64,000 bases of DNA from Arcuatula senhousia. Taxonomy: Eukaryota; Mollusca; Bivalvia; Mytilida; Mytilidae. Where the stretch lies: contig OZ020307.1 of the NCBI GenBank assembly GCA_963971305.1, forward strand, positions 48,977,702 to 49,041,701, in the 5' to 3' direction. A program made the position numbers and the translations under genes. Position 1 is the stretch's first letter, and each line of letters begins with the position of its first letter. Below the pieces are notes generated by a model. It was not told the DNA's origin. It did no database searches and saw nothing but the letters and a program-made list of their open reading frames with translations. This document shows, piece by piece, positions 2-52,715 of the stretch.

Positions 2-1318
2 ATGAATCCAGCAGATAAGGAGAAGACAGCGTTTTCGACACCAACAGGTGGTTTGTATCAGTACGTGACGATGCCCTTCGGTTTGTGTAATGCCGGAGCT
101 ACGTTTCAGAGAATAATTGAAACAGCTATGCAGGGATTACAGTGGCATATTCTAGTTTTATATCTGGATGATATAATAGTGTATAGTAAAAATTTTCATG
201 ATCACGTACAGAATTTGCAACAAGTCTTTCAGCGATTATCGGATGCTGGTCTGAAGCTTAAGCCAACTAAATGTCGGTTTTTCAAACATGAAGTTGAATT
301 TCTTGGTCATTTAGTCTCGGAAGAGGGGATCCGGACGGATCCAGCGAAGATTGACGCCATTGTAAGGATGAAATGCCCAACAAATGTGTCGGAGTTGAGA
401 TCTTTTATTGGTCTGGTATCTTATTACAGGCGATTTGTAAAAGATTTTTCGAAAATAGCTAAGTGTCTTTTTGATTTGCTGCATAAAAATGTTCAATGGA
501 AATGGACAGAGGAATGTGAAGAAGCGTTTTGCGTTTTGAAGAGGAAACTTACCAGTGCACCAATATTGGGTTACCCACAAGTGGACGGAGATACTTTCAT
601 ATTGGATACAGATGCTTGTCAGTCCGGAATCGGAGCAGTCCTTTCTCAATTACAAAATGGACAAGAGCGTGTGATAGCATACGGGAGTCGAACATTGAAT
701 AAAGCGGAAAAGAGTTATTGTGTAACGAGAAAGGAACTTTTAGCGCTTGTGTATTTTATAAAATATTTTAGACATTATTTACTTGGTCGACAGTTTATAT
801 TGAGAACTGATCACGGATCATTAACATGGCTTTATAAGTTCAAAGACCCAGATGGTCAGATTATGCGATGGATACAACAGTTGAGTTGTTATGATTTTGA
901 AATTGTACATAGAAGGGGATTAAAACATAACAACGCAGATGCACTTTCCAGGATAACTATTGAGGACAAAGAATTCTGTAAACAGTGTAATTTACCTTGG
1001 GACTATGAGTACGAAACTTCACACGGGTGTGATACTATTCATGTACCGGAAGACATAAGTGCAGTACAACAGGCTGAAGATCAGCCGATGGACTCCGAAA
1101 ACGTCGAAAGTCGGAAGAGAGGTCCTAAACGAAATGCTCCGCCTAAAGCAAGAGGTCGTAAAAAACCTGAAGTTGACTTGTCACCGGAGGCAATATACCA
1201 ACTGCAAAGACATGACCCAGAGCTAGGTCCGGTACTTGTTTTAAAAGAACGGAATTCGGGGAAACCCTCCAAAGAAGCAATTGAAGGTCTTAGTGCAAAT
1301 TCCAGATTTTGGATATAA
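2..1318 (+). CDS. pol: Gypsy Pol: reverse transcriptase (C-terminal part) and RNase H
   Basis: Partial at the 5' end. The translation starts in the RT fingers/palm; an FGLCNAGATFQR segment precedes the catalytic box YLDDIIVYS at about residue 55. A connection domain follows, then RNase H with the acidic residues visible in DTDACQSGIGAVLSQ, KELLALV, RTDHGSLTWL and NNADALSR. RT copies the element RNA into DNA and RNase H removes the RNA strand, in cytoplasmic particles. A basic linker (SRKRGPKRNAPPKARGRKK) follows. The frame ends at TAA 1316-1318, but the same frame reopens at once with integrase, so the stop is best read as a disabling substitution. Confidence 0.9.
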   Translation: MNPADKEKTAFSTPTGGLYQYVTMPFGLCNAGATFQRIIETAMQGLQWHILVLYLDDIIVYSKNFHDHVQNLQQVFQRLSDAGLKLKPTKCRFFKHEVEFLGHLVSEEGIRTDPAKIDAIVRMKCPTNVSELRSFIGLVSYYRRFVKDFSKIAKCLFDLLHKNVQWKWTEECEEAFCVLKRKLTSAPILGYPQVDGDTFILDTDACQSGIGAVLSQLQNGQERVIAYGSRTLNKAEKSYCVTRKELLALVYFIKYFRHYLLGRQFILRTDHGSLTWLYKFKDPDGQIMRWIQQLSCYDFEIVHRRGLKHNNADALSRITIEDKEFCKQCNLPWDYEYETSHGCDTIHVPEDISAVQQAEDQPMDSENVESRKRGPKRNAPPKARGRKKPEVDLSPEAIYQLQRHDPELGPVLVLKERNSGKPSKEAIEGLSANSRFWI

Positions 1319-39649: not shown

Positions 39650-39680
<31 letters not shown>

Positions 39681-42600
39681 TTGCTTTACTCCCAAGCAGC
39701 ACGATTTCGGCTATATCCGGGAGATTAACATGAAAGTGGTGATACAATGAACATGAAATGATGATGATGAAGTGGAGGAAATTGGGACACAAGGCCAATC
39801 GGGTAGGAGAGTTTTGACTGCCACTGGAAAAAGGAGTGATGGGTAGGGACGGGAAATTTAGCCTCCTGCATGGAGATCCTACGGGTCCTACTCTTACCGA
39901 GACCTGCAGCAGGGTTCTTTAACGTGCGAGGAACGTGACATTTTTCCCAACACGGTGCACCACTATGGTTTGCGGTCAGGTTTTCCGCATTATCGCCTGA
40001 CGACCCCGCATCTCTCAATGTCAGGGCTGCCCCATTCAACCACCTGGGACACACAACCCAGTCGCTTTGTGGGCAAAGCGGCCTGACCCGATGTCAGGTT
40101 TCTGAGCGCTCTTTAGTGGACTTTTACCGACAAGCTTAGCTCTGCTTCGGGCTTATTCGCCACACGGAACCCGCACGGGTTGAAAATCACAATAAATTAA
40201 AATAGATTAGAATAACGACGCCAATACACATATCATGTCCGTGGTGAGTGAAGGGGTGAGTTGGTGTTTTACGGCCGTGCAACGCCTATAAGTTTTTTCA
40301 CAGGCAATGAACATGGATCGGGTGATACAATGAACATGAAATGATGATGAATGAAATATGGGGATGGGATGAGAAACAAAGGAAGGGTAAATTTTGAAGA
40401 ACCACAGGAAAAGGAGAGAGGTGGGTAGGGGCGGAAAATTATAGCCTATGTTGTGCACTACTTTGCGGTCTTTGGGGTCTTTGGGGTCTTTTATAATTGA
40501 CATAAAATGAAGCGTGACATTCTTCACACAAGTTGGCCCACTATGACAAACCCCGCAGACGAGGTCCACCCTACTCAGCCACCTAGGTTACACACTTGGT
40601 CGCTCTGTGGGCTGAACACTGACCGGCCGACGTTCGACACCAAGGCCCCGCACGGGATTTCATGTCCATGGCATTGTACTTAAAATATGTTATTACTTAT
40701 ATATATACATAAGTTTTAATTGTTTTATACAAAAAAAAATAAGATTGCTTTGAAGTAATAAGAATAATAGCAAGATAAGAATATGATATTTGATTTAAAT
40801 CTATAGAGAACAACCTTCAAACATGACTTAATTGCAAGTCTTACCCATTTGCATGTGTTTACTGAAAATATATCATTGACTATTGTTTTGATGAATGAAT
40901 CTTCACAACACTGTAATACTGGAAACCACATTCAATGTGTGGGAGCGAAACCGGAACTTGGTACTAGTTGAAGCGAGACATGTCAAATGACAAACGCCAC
41001 TGAAGGTAAGAAATTCTATTTTTTGCTTATGTAACAAGCTTTTTCGAGTTGAAGTTGAAATCGATTGACGCATATGTTAATTGACAAGTTGTGTGTCTTT
41101 TAACAGAGTCGTACGAAAGGGTTTTATATGAAAACGAGTTAAAAAATGTTGACCTGGTACTGGTGAAAAGTGAGATCACGACATCAAACAACATAATATT
41201 CAACGATTTAACGCATATCTGGTAGAACCAATTGATAAATTTTGAATAAAATGTTTTACTAAAAATAAAAATATAAGAAAAGACGACCCTGGGGCTGAAA
41301 TGACGCTTAAATCGTGGAAACAAAATCGAATCGGTGTACGGCAGCTTTTTGTTTTTCAAGTCATACGATGTACGGCAGCTTGAAAAAATTAGCGTACGGC
41401 AGCTTGTAATATCAATAATTAATTTTTGACATTTTAGCAATATATTGGTGCTTTTAGCTGTGATTAAAATAAAAACATGATTGTTTATCTTAGACAATTT
41501 TTTTCTGTGTATGGAAGGAATATCAAATACATATTTTGGTTTATATTTCTCTGGCATAACAGCATGCAAGCCAACTGTCCATATCTATATTTGATAATTA
41601 ATTTTGCAACTTCTGGTCTGCTTGCGCCGTCACTTGATTGAGCGATGTACTCTATAGATGTAGATGTACTGGATGTGGATAACGTATCACAAAACGAAGT
41701 TAACATGTAACTCCATGTTTATATCATTTAAATCTTTCACATTTCAGATGAATTCATCAATGTTGTCGGTTGACCTATCAGGGGAGGAAGAGGTGTTCAG
41801 GCGGGTTTACAACTGCACGTCATGTAATTATTACACGGACAGCAAGAGTAACCTTAACAAACATACGAAGCGAATGCACGAAATCCGAAATCAAAAAACA
41901 AGCATGTTTATTTGTGAAACTTGTGGCAAAGTTTTGAAGAGTCAATTTGGTTTGCAACTGCATGTAAAAAACAGCCACACCAAGGAATACAGATACATAT
42001 GCAACATTTGTCAAAAGGGGTACAACCAAAGAATTCCGTTTCGGTACCATGTAGCATCCCACTCAAATGTTGGACAAGATAAATGCAAGGCATGCAGAAA
42101 AGAATTTAACTCAAGTGGGTCTCTAAAAAGGCATATGGAAACGTGTCCCTCCAGTAAAAGCAACACCCGGCCACACACCTGTCCTATTTGCCAATCATCT
42201 TTCAGTAGAAAATACAGGTTAGACGAACACTGCCGTGGAAAACACGGAGATAAAAAATATGGCTGCTCCTCATGTGGAAAAAGATTTGGCTGGCGTTCTT
42301 CGCTTAAAGCTCATTTAAAAGTCTGTAAAGCATCCAACTAGATGAAGACTTATTAATATTCTTCATGACTGTTACTACGCAGGGAGCGTACACCAGTGTT
42401 TAACTACTTTGTTTTGAAGATACTCACGCATTCTGTACTGTTTATGTAAAATTGTTTCATGTCTAATAAGACAATCAATGTAATGTTAGGGGGCTAGGGA
42501 TATTATTGTTTCCTTTAGAAAATCCTATGAAAATATTTGTTATATCATTTTACACACAGAATATTATGGTCAAAATATTGATTTTAAAGTAAACATGGTA

Positions 42601-45600
42601 AACTAAGTTTTAAAAAATCCCTAGTCCCTAAACAGGTACCTTCATTTTATTTATATTTTTTTCATTTTTTATGTTTAATTTATTATTAAGACTCAGGGAT
42701 TTGAGTATGTTGATTTTTTTATATATAATTTTTTTTTTCTATTAAGAATTTGCTCAATCATTTTTTTATTTTTTTATTTTGTTTTTGTTAATACAAAAGT
42801 AATAAAGTTATTTGTATATTATGAAAATTTTGCATTTCGTATCCTGGTGCCATTACCATATTTTATCTCGCCTACGAAGTAGAGCAGTGCATATGGGTTA
42901 AGTAGTAGCTTAGCTTATCCCAATCTTTTAACCTAGAACTTATGTTTCCGGTTAAGTGACTTTGACAATTTTAAAAACTATCATATAAAAGCAATTTTAA
43001 GGTTTTATGTCCCCTTCAAATAATAAGAACTGTGATTCATAGGTTATTGAAACTTGATATGCATATGCCCCAGTAGTATATTAACACAGTTGGTCCCCAT
43101 ATTGACCTTGAACTTGATTTTCTGGTTGAGTGCCAATTTTCTGTTACATAAATAATAGAATAGTGAAGGTTTTATCTCAGAAACTTGAAGTAGGTTAATG
43201 AAACTTCATATGTGGTTGTGTCAGATCTAGATCTTAATGAGCTTCACAATTTGACAAAATATAACTGTATTAGCCCTCGTTCGTTCATTCCAAATGCCAG
43301 GGGGTCGGGAGGTGGTTGTTTACCTTTCTATACCAAAGAATGTTTCGATGTTTTAATGGGTTTCGTTGCAGTTTCTGTGTTTTATTTTAAGTTTTTGACG
43401 TGTGAATGTTTGTCGATTGTCTTTTTTGTCAGACTTCTCTGATCACGTATATATCGTAGTTGGCGGCACCGGAACTTGTGGTAAGTATACCCCCACTCGA
43501 CCATTCAGAAAACAGGAAGTAGATGACCAACTGACCTGGAAAGAGGAGGCACGGTACAACTCATCATGCTAAAGCTGTATACCAATTTGAAATCAATCCC
43601 TTCTGTAGAAGCCGAGAAATCTGTTACAAAAAATTGTCTATTTTTTTTTACCCATAAAAAGTCTAGGTTGGCTCGGAAAAAAGGAAGTAGATGATGGACT
43701 GTTGAATCTGTGTACCAAATTTAAAACCCATCCATCCAATAGAAGCCGAGAAATCTGTTACGAAAAATTTCACATTTCAAATTTTTTACCCTAAAACAAG
43801 AAGTAGATGATGGACTGGCCTGGAAAGAGGAGGCATGGTATAACTCATCATGCTGAAGCTGTGAAACCAATCCATCCAGTAGAAATTGAACCGGACGGAC
43901 AGACGGACGGACAAGGTGATTGCAATATAGCCCCCTCTCTTACGAGTGGGGGTATAAAAAGTAATAAGTACGTTAATAAATTACATTTTGTGCATTTTTT
44001 CATCAATCCAGAACCCAAACTCACATACATGACAACATACAAATTCCAAAGCGGATATAAAAACAGTTAATTTTGTACAGCTGAAGTAATCTCTCATCGT
44101 CACTGTATTGGAAGGCAAAACAAGACGAAAGTATTCAAACCTAAAACGTTCGAACAGATAAGCCAAATGTATTAACACAGAGAATTAAAACATAATGTTA
44201 AGAAGTTAGGAGATGTATGAAACAAGAAGTCCCAATAGATATTTTGAAATTGTGCGCCCTCCCGTTTGAAAATTTCAGTATCCGCCACAGCAGTGTATAA
44301 ATCAGCATTGGTCCTTATTTCGTACTAATAGCTTAAAATAAAATGGTAGGTTAAACCGGCTTTACAGTGCAAAACCTTTCACATCCAATGCTTAAGATTA
44401 TTTGAGTAAGATTTTGAATCCCTGAATTTTTTATTGTGCACTTCAAAATTCTTTCGGGCATCATGAACTATGACAACACAAATTGAGAAAAATTTCGGAA
44501 ACATTAAAGAAAAAGTTTCAGAAAAGCAAAACAACATCAAATTGCAGCTTCATACCATGTTTTATAATACAAATTATCAAAACGGGCCCCAATAGACAAA
44601 GTGCATTTTCAAGAAGTTATCTTGCATACATTTGTAAGTACCATTTGAAAAACAAACGAATGAAAAGTATTCGTACCCCCAAAAGTGCTGTATACATGCA
44701 AATGTGACTTAGAAGACAAAAAGAAAAAACATATCAAACAAATTGTTAATACTGTAATCAAAGTATGAAAACGTATGTCAACATAAATCAAATTTACAGT
44801 TTATAAATTAGTCGATCTCGATGCCTAATCTCTTGTGGGGCAATATCTTGCTTTCGTCACATTTGTGATGTTGCCGCACAGGAGCAACTCCCCTTGCAGC
44901 TTCGTCTGGCTTTGCAATAGTTACCAATCTTCGTTTAGGTTTCCGTTTTGCTCGTTCAATACTGTCAAACATGTGATCCCTAAAAAGTAAAAAAAGGTAC
45001 GTTAATTTTTGAGTACAAAAGCTCTTAGTACAGTAATAATTTTGTACTTTTATGTTGAGTCATCAATGATGTACTAACAGTAAAGCTTAAATGGAAAAAG
45101 TAGTTAATAAAACCATTTTTTTCACTGTTTTTTTTTTCAAATAGGCTAGTAAGATTAAAAAAAAATGTTTTCTTTTAAAGTGACAATGTCAAAAAAAGAA
45201 TGATGAGCAGAGATATAATAAATCGCGTATGTACTATGTTAATACGCTGTGATATCGGTCAAGAAATTCATACATGTACGTCCAGCTTTTTACAGTCAAT
45301 ACCGATCTAGCATTGTATCGACCTGATTCAAAGGCTATATTTTTTGTACAGTTAAGATACATGTGTGTAATGACGTGACACGTTTCTGGACTATATTATG
45401 TACAAGTTTAATTAAAAAAAACATTGATAAGAATGATAAATACTACAAAATTTCATGATTAGTTATGAAGGTTGAAATTAATAATTAATGCCATTTGGAA
45501 AATGTTCCCTTACACATGCTAAACATGATATGATGATTAATGAAAAGAATACAATTGAAATATTGTCTGTATAGCCACCGCCCACAAAATAGCAATAACT

Positions 45601-48600
45601 TGTGCACAATAATCTTACTTGACTGATATTCTGTGTACTATTGTCGGGTAAATATTGGGAGCATCGACTTCCATTCTCTCATCTGTATGTTGAAGGGAAT
45701 TTACTGGATACACTTTGGCTCTGGAAGTGTTCATATAGAAAGGACGATTTGGCATAAGCCTAGTGTGATTCATTTGACACGCCGATTCCAAAGCTAAAGG
45801 AATATCTTCGGCTTTGATTACTCCTGACCCTTTAGGATCCAAGTCCTGAAACTCACCAAAGAAATTTTCGGCCTCTAAACTCCCAAGTGACCGTACATTA
45901 AATCGGCCAGATTTTACATAAGGGTGTAACTGTATTCTACGGTCTATGTTTGTTAAGTATCCTTGAAACATTATATTAGGAACTCCTCTAATGTGAGACC
46001 CATAAGGCGGAAAGTTTATTAAAGATACATCCTCTAATATCCAGTTGCGAAGTACTAATCGTCTACGACATCTTTCTATGGCCGGTATACCTGGAGAGTC
46101 CTCCGATTCATGAAATTCACGCATGATACGACAAAATGTGGCCTCCTTTTTGTGTCCTAATCGTTCCATTTCCGTTTCGACATCTAATGAGAATGTTTCC
46201 ATTGCAATCGAGTCACTCTGCTTGTCTACGAGATCTTCAACATGTGAAATTTTAAGGTTCGTACTGTTGTTTTTTGCGACGTCTAGCCATGCTTCCTTTT
46301 TAATTCCTCTCTCTGGGAATCCATCTTTGCACACTTTGATTCTACAATTCGTTAGTAGATGATGAGGATCTAAGAAGGAAAATAAGTAGGATAATGTCGA
46401 AGGATTGTACTCAGGCCTCGAAAACCATATTACATCACCAATGTCATCTACAAAGGTAGGATTATGAAAACAACTCTGCATCCTCCAATTCTTAATTTTA
46501 TCTTGAAATGTATTTTCAGCTACCACAGCATTTAGAAATTTTTTAGGAAGTGACCTCACAGCTTTGCGACAGAGATTGACCAGAGACTCAGGCTGTTTTT
46601 TCTTTTTAGCTTTTAATGGGGGAGATATTCGCGAACTTGTCGTTGCCTCAACCATGACATTCACAATTTTAGGTTTAGCCCAGGATTTGCAGACATGAAG
46701 AGATGAATTGGCATGTTCTTCTCTGAATACGTCATAAAATACCAAAATTACTTTCTTAGTTAACTTAGACATGAGGTCTTTGTTGCACATTAGTCTCTGA
46801 AATTCTTCAAACGTTTGTGGATATTTCTTTGACCATTCTTGGCGTTTTTGTACATTTTGGAAGATTTTAAGAAGACTATCTCTATTTATTATGTTTTCAG
46901 AATCGACATTTTCAGTTGTCGGTAATTGTTCTTCCATTTGCATATCGTCAACAACATTACTAACTCAAAATTTTAAAGATTAGGTTCTGCTTGTTCCACA
47001 AAAGTCTCTACTTGAAGAATATTACTGGTTTCATTACTAATACCTATAGTATCATCGCTTAAATTCTCATTCTCTTGTTCGTACAGTCGGTCTAAGGCGA
47101 GGTCATTAGAAATATCTACCCGCCTTGAACTACTTGTAGAATTTTCCAAAGACGACAGAGATTCAACAGCCGAGTGATCGATTCCAGCTATTACTGCAGT
47201 TGGTAGATTTGACATAGCTTGGTTTACATTAATGGTTTCATTTTCATCGTTGTCGATCGTCTTTGTCTTTTTCTTTTCTTTCTTGCAAATTTGCAAATAT
47301 GATACTAAATTGGAGGACATTCGATAAAGTTTTTGATCGTCTTTTAAACCTACTATTATACCTGATTCACTTCGTTGAAAACACAAATTTTCTGTAACTT
47401 CTAAATGGCTCGTAACTTTAACTAGTCCTGTCGCAAAAATTTCGTCATGAAGGGATTTCGCCTTTCGGGCCTGTATTTCACATAAATGTTTCTTTTGTAA
47501 CTCTAATATGGTTAATGGCTCTTCATGTTCATCGTGGAAAGCTAGCCTTGCCCACTGTCCATCGTATGAAATGACAGGACAATATATTCCATAACGAAAG
47601 AGAGTTTCAAGCACATCTTGTAGCATTTTCCTCATTTGGTCTGCTCTCATACTGTATCCCTTAAAGGCAAAAGCTACAGGACATGCATGAGGCATTTCTG
47701 CCTTGTATGTCCTGTCAAGGTCGGCGAGCATAAAAACCAAGACTTCTGTCGCTCTTGTTGTGCAAATCTTATGACATTCATTGATGACATCTTCACATTT
47801 CATAAAAACTCTTATAATTTCATCTAGGTAGAGATTGGATTGTGCTAAGTCAATGCATCCTTTATGATAAATTCGCATGTCCGAATCATTAAACGAAAAA
47901 TGTTGACAAGGTTCGGCCGTGCAAGATGACAATTCAGCAATGAAACAAAATCTTTTTATTGAATCTCTTATATCTTGGATATTCGGATTTGTCACTTTGG
48001 GTATACATTTGTAATCAACAGTTTTAATAATGTTGTAAATTTTCCCCCATAAACTGGCATCAAATGAGACCTCCATAACCGTCATTGATTGGTCTGAATA
48101 TGACAAATAAAGAAGTTTGTCAACACCTAATGAATTCATTTCACTTAATACTTGACACACATAGTAGTGTGGGATATTGTAGTGCACAGGGGTTGTAAAA
48201 GTTTTATCGGGAAAAGGGCATTTTATTTCTATACCATATATAGGTTTTTCATCACTTTTCCGCCTTAAGCTTCCGTCCGGACTAACAACCAAAACTGTTT
48301 TGTCCCCTTCTTTTTCTACATAACATCCTTCTTCGTAAAAGGCTAAATTTGGAGCAAAGGCAGGTAGGTACTTTGAAACCAATGTTGCTACGGCGTTTAG
48401 TTCATTTTTGCTTCCATGATCAAATTTTTTCTGTAATTCGCTCGGGATTTCTTTTTCTGGTATATCTCCAGCTTTAATAAGAAGGTGCTCACGTTGTTTT
48501 TTTAACCCATCCAGACCTATTGCAGTATTTATGCTACTCCCTGTGACGTTGGATTTTTTACGTTCGTAAAACCAACCATCAGATCTTTGTTTTATCAAAG

Positions 48601-51600
48601 AAGGGGTATTCAAACTATTGCCGGTAAGGCAAACCATATAACCCTGCTTGTTTAATGAGATTAATTTCTCTGTATGAAAATGTGATCCGGTATTGTTGAA
48701 ATACGCAGCAAACATACACAAAGCATCATTGCAATTCATTATGACCTCAATAGTATTTTCTATTTGATAAATTGTTGTTTTGATGCTACTGATAACCATT
48801 GAGAATTGGCTATTTTTCCAATCAGTTTCACATTTGTCTTGAAGTTTTTTCAAAAACAGAACTTTTTTCACCTTCAGTTTCCTAAGATCACTTGTTCGTT
48901 CGCTTAGTATTGTTACAGTCTTTCTACATCCAGCTAAAATAAGCTCCTTGTCATGTTCGCTGCAAGACATCACTTCGCAATGATTAAAGGACAATAATTT
49001 TTGCAACAGTTCCTTTAGTTCTCGCACATGGTCTAATTCACTAGTAAGTCTAGATTGTCTTTCTTTAAATGTCGGAGAATCCTCATAACCCCAAAGATCA
49101 ATTTCTCCTTTTGAACTTGGATTAATCTTTTTGCCATCTACACAAAGTTTATACGTTTTTGAATGATTGGGATCACATGCTGCCAAAGAGGCAATCATGG
49201 CATTCATAATACCAGGCGATTTTCCGTCCACAAAAGTTTTTTCATCCTCTAGCATTTTTCTATCAGGAACGACAAAGTTAACTTTTGATAAATGGGAACC
49301 AGACTCAGCATTTCCACCAGTACATTTTGGACCGCCCATATACCTTAAAAATCGTCCGTGAAACAAACGTAAACCGGTTTTCCAAAATAGCTTGATTTCA
49401 TTCGAGTATCGCATGTTATAAATTCCGTCACCAGTTCCATACCACCTTACAACATCTAAAAATAGCAAAAATGCTATATTGTCTAAAGGAAACACACCAT
49501 CTTTAACCAGTTTATGAAAGAGTACGTACTCGTTAAATTTACCTACTTTTTTCAGTTGTTCTACAACGGAGGGAAGCAGTGATATTATTTCCGAGTGTTC
49601 ATTGTCATTATCGTCGAGATATAAATCAGCTGCACCAGTTTCATTTGCTGTTTCAACATTTGCCACTATACCATTATGGTTTGATTTTGTAATTTTGCCA
49701 CAAGGACTATCTTTAACAACATTATTACATCTGGAAATGTGAATTGTGTTTGAAGTTTCATTTATTGAAATTGTTCTCCCTTGTTGCCGGCATATTTCAG
49801 GAATTATTTTAAAGTTATTCACTTTGATGTTGCTTTCCTCCTTTCGGGAAAATTTAAGTGTTTCTTCAGGGTGTGATTCAATTAAATGTGTCACTATTTC
49901 CGAGAAGGTTTGTTTGCATGTATCTTTACAGTATATGCACATGTAAACTGTATTCATGGCATGTCCTGCAAATAATAAAAAAAAATAGGATATCAATTAG
50001 GATTTTTTATGCAGAATGCTCTTAAACGTTCTTAAATGTTAATTTGTTTTGTTGTTGAATGTATTTTTCAATACAGTACAAAATTAGTTTCAATATATAC
50101 AGTACAAAATCAGTTTAAAATGTCCACGATCATGTTATTTACAGACAAAATCCTCTGAATAAGAGTTCATAGACCTTTATATAACTTGTGTCTTGCGGTA
50201 AAATGCGATATGGAACTACAAAATTGCAACATTTTAGAAATCTCCACAAGCTGCCGTACACTAAAACAAATTATGAATTTGCAAGTTCCCGTACATTTGT
50301 ATAACAAGCTGCCGTACACTGATTCGATTTTGTTTCCACGATTTAAGCGTCATTTCAGCCCCAGGGTCGTCTTTTCTTATATTTTTATTTTTAGTAAAAC
50401 ATTTTATTCAAAATTTATCAATTGGTTCTACCAGATATGCGTTAAATCGTTGAATATTATGTTGTTTGATGTCGTGATCTCACTTTTCACCAGTACCAGG
50501 TCAACATTTTTTAACTCGTTTTCATATAAAACCCTTTCGTACGACTCTGTTAAAAGACACACAACTTGTCAATTAACATATGCGTCAATCGATTTTAACT
50601 TCAACTCGAAAAAGCTTGTTACATAAGCAAAAAATAGAATTTCTTACCTTCAGTGGCGTTTGTCATTTGACATGTCTCGCTTCAACTAGTACCAAGTTCC
50701 GGTTTCGCTCCCACACAGTGACATTGAAACACAAAAAAATAAACATTTTAGCATAATACAAAAACAATATACCACCCTCCTAGTTTTATGTGCCTATGAA
50801 TTACAATGTGTATATGTATTTGCAGATAAAACACCGACCGAGAGTCTGTCTTCGACAAAGTCAACGTCCCAATCTGGTAGTTGTAATATAATATGTAATA
50901 CTAGTATATTTTTTCATAAAATAAATTACAAACTTTTGTACATACATGACATACATTGCTATTTTGTAAGTATTTCCAAATTTGCTACTTTCCTGATCAA
51001 GTTTGTTTAGTAATAAGGACAGTTCTTTTTGAAAATTTCCATACGGTTACCAAGAATTATTACTAACAAAAACTGTCAACCTAGTAAAAACTTTGTTTAT
51101 TGTCACATGTAAAAATGCTCCTTCTGTCAATTTTCATGTCACAATTTTAGGTTGCTGGTTGTAATCGCTTCAACTGTCTTATCATCTAGCATTTCGAGCT
51201 GACAAAGAATTAAAAAAATAAATATTAATTTGAATAGACTTATATTACATTTTAATTTGTAGCGAATACATGTATGTTTGATTAATTAAACATGAGAAAA
51301 TGGAGGTCTGCAAAATGAACTTTTTGTATATTATTTTACTAGGTGTAATCATTGGAACAGTCCTAGGAACATTTATATTACTGTGTGTATTGGTAGCAGT
51401 TGTGATTTTAATCGGGTATGTTAAATGTAAATAGCAAAATATCTGGTTCACTAATAACATGATGCAATTTGACCCTAAACGGAGTAATTTCTTGAAAACA
51501 TTTTGGCAGCTCATTAAAGGAAATAACAAAATGTCACTCTTTTATGTCCTTGAAATATGGATATTTCATATTCATAATCGTGTTAATTTATTCGACCTAT

Positions 51601-52395: not shown

Positions 52396-52483
52396 AACAG
52401 TGGAGATTTGTACTATTCTTTTCGGCAAAACATTTAAATGATACGTTAGATTTCTATAGTTAATGTGCGAAAAATTAAGAATA

Positions 52484-52715
52484 GGACCCGTAGGATCCCC
52501 ATGTAGGAGGCTAAATTTCCCGTCCCTACCCGTCATTCCTTTTTCCAGTGGCAGTCAAAACTCTCCTACCCGATTGGCCTTGTGTCCCCATTTCCTCCAC
52601 TTCATCATCATTTCATGTTCATTATATCACCAATTTCATGTTCATCTCCCGGATATAGCCGAAATCGTGGTGCTTGGGAGTAAAGCAATAACTAACTAAC
52701 TAACTAACTCTATGA
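52484..52715 (+). mobile_element. SINE-like element (family S), 5'-truncated
   Basis: GGACCCGTAGGATCCCCATG through GGGAGTAAAGCAATAACTAA with (CTAA)n tail; 90 bp after the stop codon of gene B, so possibly in its 3' UTR. Confidence 0.75.

Follow-up and report, generated by a model that had tools for sequence, protein, structure and literature searches.

The described systems closest to the element reported here each share part of its features. Members of the P element superfamily have target duplications of 7-8 bp, as given in PMC7776569 and PMC4168063, and the former describes a 17-nt stagger in end cutting by the P element transposase as well as insertions after strand 5 in RNase H-type transposases (the GTP-binding domain in P; also Hermes, Tn5, and RAG1). 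ISL2EU, of the PHIS superfamily, is a DDE (Asp, Asp, Glu) transposon described as having a YqaJ nuclease in a separate open reading frame (ORF) and the target duplication AT (PMC4482050; also PMC9179366). KolobokP and KolobokD, found in molluscs and other animals, are likewise DDE transposons that have acquired a nuclease, of the His-Me or DEDDh type, and these are not described there as lying inside the DDE core (PMC9587614). In the accounts given by mollusc genome papers, the YqaJ-domain gene family is expanded (PMC7826175) or contracted (PMC10225492). Here, we analyzed 64,000 nt of the genome of the bivalve Arcuatula senhousia (contig OZ020307.1, positions 48,977,702 to 49,041,701; denoted the window) and found a transposon whose transposase, judged by its relatives, is one gene encoding one chain, with a YqaJ nuclease predicted to be nested between the first and second strands of its catalytic core. 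The features of the transposon and its transposase gene are as follows.

40933-50720, whole transposon, 9788 bp
46973-49957, minus strand, transposase, first half (starting at its ATG), with a C2H2-like finger at the N-terminus, then a helical region, strand 1 (D287), the nuclease, and strands 2-4 (D812)
49127-49156, minus strand, RNase H strand 1 (residues 281-290), with the first catalytic Asp, D287, in VDGKKI
47912-48664, minus strand, YqaJ/lambda-exonuclease-type nuclease region (residues 445-695)
48134-48574, minus strand, Pfam YqaJ match (residues 475-621, E 1.3e-10)
47561-47746, minus strand, RNase H strands 2-4 (residues 751-812), with the second catalytic Asp, D812, at 47561-47563
46944-46975, minus strand, break between the two frames: a premature stop and a small length difference; the frame is continuous in a sister copy elsewhere in the genome
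45619-46943, minus strand, transposase, second half, comprising a helical region, strand 5 (containing DPHH), an inserted helical part, and the third catalytic residue
45867-45869, minus strand, third catalytic residue, E359, in SLEAENFF of the second frame
44808-44979, minus strand, transposase gene, 3' exon predicted to be joined by splicing, with the conserved tail ending in RQHHKCDESKILPHKRLGIEID

The window copy encodes the transposase on the minus strand in two frames, ORF1 (46973-49996; 1007 aa from a TTG start, 994 aa from the ATG at 49957) and a second ORF (45615-46943; 442 aa). An earlier reading made from the letters alone (the sequence-only reading) had given the first protein 1003 residues; the ORF is there but its length differs. 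The motifs it had picked out were all found at their places, namely VDGKKI (residue 286), GEIDLWG (297), VSPDG (571), EIKCPF (590), VCQVLSEM (613), and VISYDGQW (808) in ORF1, and DPHH (192) and EAENFF (357) in the second frame, and the Pfam match agrees with the YqaJ-type nuclease it had seen in ORF1. The structural model predicted for a family member has a P-type RNase H core with D, D, and E, and its nuclease shows the YqaJ/lambda-exonuclease fold with an E, D, E-x-K, Q active site. Superposition of the P element on this model starts at model residue 38, before D66, and runs through 200..569 of the chain. A helical insertion of ~170 residues stands at the place of the GTP-binding domain of the P element (strand 5/helix 4), and the connections to the nuclease module are long helices. 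The predicted fold is consistent with the proposal of the sequence-only reading that the nuclease sits inside an RNase H-like core.

Searching the PDB by sequence gave no match for ORF1, while the family profile had as its sole match the mimivirus R354 nuclease (E 3.2e-4). A tblastn search against phages found no match. Among the 12 matches in BFVD at E<=0.001, the named ones were YqaJ exonucleases or phage-type endonucleases and 4 were nameless. Lambda exonuclease, LHK-Exo, and phage YqaJ are stand-alone phage enzymes, whereas here the nuclease is part of a transposase.

Nucleases of the lambda type require a free double-strand end and digest the 5'-ended strand. We consider it probable that the element encodes a single transposase with a P-element-type DDE core and a nested lambda-exonuclease-type (YqaJ) nuclease, the core likely excising and joining the element and the nuclease likely trimming, and we infer that both active sites are functional. 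The fold and the conserved DDE residues suggest cut-and-paste transposition with a 5-bp target stagger. The DDE core would cut the element out and join its ends to the staggered target, and the nuclease would trim the 5'-ended strands at the breaks. We favor such trimming as the role of the nuclease, its substrate being either the transposon ends, whose 3' strands would be exposed, or the donor break, where the gap would be resected toward homologous copy-back. If true, one protein would perform both excision and DNA-end trimming, and a recombinase with an entire second nuclease between its strands 1 and 2 would have a novel architecture. The control of a transposon over the resection of its own donor break also becomes testable.

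To describe conservation, we aligned 83 relative proteins and counted at each column only those with a residue there. Named relatives come from Pinctada, Mytilus, Solemya, Mya, Ruditapes, Batillaria, and Owenia, a set of molluscs and one annelid. The first Asp is D in 66 out of 66 (the remaining 17 of the 83 are gapped or do not reach the column), the second Asp is kept in 76 out of 77 (the exception is P0080), and the His (56 out of 56) and the Glu of the third position (50 out of 50) are invariant. In the nuclease, the first Glu is kept in 78 out of 79 relatives (P0055 is an exception) and the Asp, Glu, Lys, and Gln in 80 out of 82 each (exceptions P0065 and P0066). All six key residues are aligned in 38 of the 51 chains that reach from the first Asp to the Glu; the other 13 comprise the substituted P0065 and P0066 and 11 chains gapped at one or more key columns. 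Silent changes exceed replacement changes in the transposase, with ratios (dN/dS) of 0.23, 0.26, 0.16, and 0.34 in near-identical pairs and 0.59 in the closest pair (10 changes); the nuclease stretch alone holds only 0-7 changes per pair. One relative, P0076, is labelled as a protein of a Candidatus Thiodiazotropha metagenome-assembled genome and is likely host DNA in a symbiont assembly.

The same nested protein could also be explained with a nuclease that takes no part in the transposition chemistry and is instead a structural spacer or targets competing DNA, such as unintegrated ends, which it would degrade. Weighing against a role in transposition, P0065 and P0066 keep the DDE residues and have substitutions at the nuclease Asp, Glu, Lys, and Gln; since the nuclease is dead in these two relatives, it may be dispensable, and a module joined by long helices could be a loosely tethered add-on. 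However, the nuclease residues are kept in nearly all relatives although the family members are mostly only ~30-40% identical to the modelled one, and the catalytic residues of both active sites are present in 11 elements of the same genome (el3-el6 and el8-el14, described below). We therefore regard a nuclease without such a role as unlikely. P0065 and P0066 may be natural nuclease-dead forms or domesticated genes.

The ends of the element, its target-site duplication, and its second gene are located as follows (TIR, terminal inverted repeat).

40928-40932, left target-site duplication ACATT, identical to 50721-50725
50721-50725, right target-site duplication ACATT, exact and exactly 5 bp
40933-41350, plus strand, left TIR, ending in CAATGTG
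50303-50720, minus strand, right TIR, ending in CACTGTG
41337-41405, plus strand, TACGGCAGCTT in three copies, located on the inner margin of the left TIR
50248-50316, minus strand, TACGGCAGCTT in two inverted copies, located close to the inner margin of the right TIR
41664-42341, plus strand, gene for a 225-aa C2H2 zinc-finger protein (pattern matching gives six fingers), in convergent orientation to the transposase gene

The TIRs proper are 418 bases long and 99% alike (inverted arms including the adjoining base, 40932-41350 and 50303-50721), close to the 415 bp with about three mismatches of the sequence-only reading, which had also recognized the ACATT repeat. We searched the genome (1.04 Gb, 1803 contigs) for copies of the element and examined 13 further places, picked for high score and long frames. 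The resulting set of 13 elements consists of the window element and 12 with both ends in the examined stretch (el3-el14); the sister copy (TIRs at C7:10949003 and C7:10969718) has its left end outside. The elements range from 9.0 to 15.3 kb. Both ends are CAC in 12 of the 13, the exception being the left end in the window, CAA, and the 5-bp target duplication is perfect in 12, with one base different in el7. As a control, left and right flanks of different elements were paired, and 1 out of 156 pairs matched. When the flanks of el3 were joined, the sequence over the joint matched at least 40 further places, with 83-92% identity (best 40 of 57 candidates). In six copies of the site the sequence continues without interruption and the duplication is present only once (AAACA in five, one base off in the sixth). 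El3 is inserted in a repeat, the uninterrupted copies of which represent a paralogous empty site. The joined flanks of el6 had a single match across the joint, only 70% identical. The 14-15 kb copies el4-el7 (L013-L020) contain long non-coding stretches, have transposases that are 96-100% alike over the aligned stretches, and end in CACAGTG, the RAG signal heptamer.

We then compared the element with the known systems. Like the P element and THAP9, it has a core that is predicted to fold as a P-type transposase. It differs from them in its 5-bp rather than 7-8-bp duplication, in the nuclease between strands 1 and 2, in ~320 further residues between the second Asp and the Glu, and in the second, zinc-finger gene. 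Scanning 26 members (some without the N-terminus) and ORF1 of the window gave no THAP model at E<=1; the N-terminus of ORF1 gave a weak C2H2-type match. ISL2EU is likewise a DDE transposon with a YqaJ nuclease, but the 5-bp duplication and the single-chain gene layout rule out membership. With Transib and RAGL the element shares CAC ends, a 5-bp duplication, and two convergent genes, as these are described in PMC7204232, but its predicted fold appears nearer the P element, it carries the nested nuclease, and its partner gene encodes a C2H2 finger protein and not a RAG2-like one. We therefore regard it as a new form of DDE transposon, which may constitute a separate superfamily.

A wider proposal, which we put forward tentatively and with some doubt, is that a P-type transposase acts on RAG-like ends (CAC to full CACAGTG) with a 5-bp stagger, and that its built-in exonuclease couples excision to 5' resection; this new superfamily would multiply itself as donor gaps lead to homologous copy-back. 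The element also shows that CAC ends and a 5-bp stagger, listed as RAG-like signs in PMC7204232, can go together with a predicted P-type core. The same ends, duplication length, and convergent gene pair could instead have been inherited from RAG-like elements by a RAG/Transib-lineage transposase that gained a nuclease, but the P element is nearer in the fold comparison; RAG/Transib is not favored as the closest fold, and such an origin seems improbable.

The nuclease might also not be nested: the VDGKK strand would then be part of its module, and the RNase H core would begin after this strand, with another first Asp. Here, the evidence comes partly from PF21787 (TNP-like RNase H), which gave a weak match to ORF1 at residues 743-816 (E 0.004, below its cut-off) that the sequence-only reading did not contain. 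It covers only the part after the nuclease, and the first-Asp segments alone had no match in Pfam and lend no support to a nested core. However, the match begins at profile position 62-65 of 137 (four matches listed), as expected of an interrupted domain. The start of the P element superposition before D66 and the invariance of the VDGKK Asp among the relatives also argue against this arrangement, which we hold to be very doubtful.

The sequence-only reading had further proposed that the catalytic core is shared by two proteins. P0001 (1516 aa) aligns as one chain with both frames, at 45% identity to the first and 55% to the second, and 29 out of 48 relative proteins match both. Within the genome, many transposase matches lie in stop-free frames of 1300-1600 aa (at least 47 matches listed; best 45 of 479 candidates). 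The sister copy, 98% identical, reads through the junction at which the frame of the window copy is stopped, and is interrupted elsewhere. In 11 of the 12 further elements, all catalytic residues are encoded within a single frame; that of el7 is split in two, and el8 has its N-terminal part in a separate frame. A core common to two separate proteins, for which the two frames of the window copy speak, can be set aside in view of the single chains of relatives, the single frames of other copies, and the continuous junction of the sister copy. An intron joining the two frames was also considered; no strong donor was found, and the open junction of the sister copy rules it out. The window copy is thus a defective copy in a family that also has intact members, and, because of the stop between its halves and the one base by which its left end is off, it is probably not autonomous. 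Exon 44808-44979, absent from the sequence-only reading, is predicted to supply the conserved tail by splicing; a similar tail is contiguous in el4 and el6, and acceptor-like and donor-like sequences are found at the joints.

The C2H2 gene and the subterminal repeats were also new relative to that reading. The C2H2 gene lies opposite to the transposase in all 13 elements (in el8 as two separate frames) and is convergent with it in 12, being divergent only in el14 (L033-L034). The ORFs of this gene in el3-el7 and el9-el11 resemble the one in the window, and its product may be an accessory end-binding factor. All five exact copies of TACGGCAGCTT in the window lie on the inner edges of the two TIRs or close to them; shuffled sequences held 0.39 on average, and 0 out of 100 reached five. 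Among nine elements examined, five-fold subterminal repeats were found only in the window element and el12. The copies are possible binding sites for the transposase or the zinc-finger protein.

The window TIR has at least 40 matches in the genome (best 40 of 157 candidates), including its own two and the two of the sister copy. Several others form inverted pairs ~4-7 kb apart, which are probably non-autonomous derivatives or relatives of the element. The pairs at C4:18170867-18174636, C14:10810716-10815781, and C9:29584045-29589194, among others, are about 79-80% like the TIR of the window. Outside the ends of the element, a 237-bp inverted pair (39660-39896 and 52476-52709; 94.5% identical) flanks it, and short direct repeats (units of 70, 52, and 29 nt) lie between its two genes at 43505-43862.
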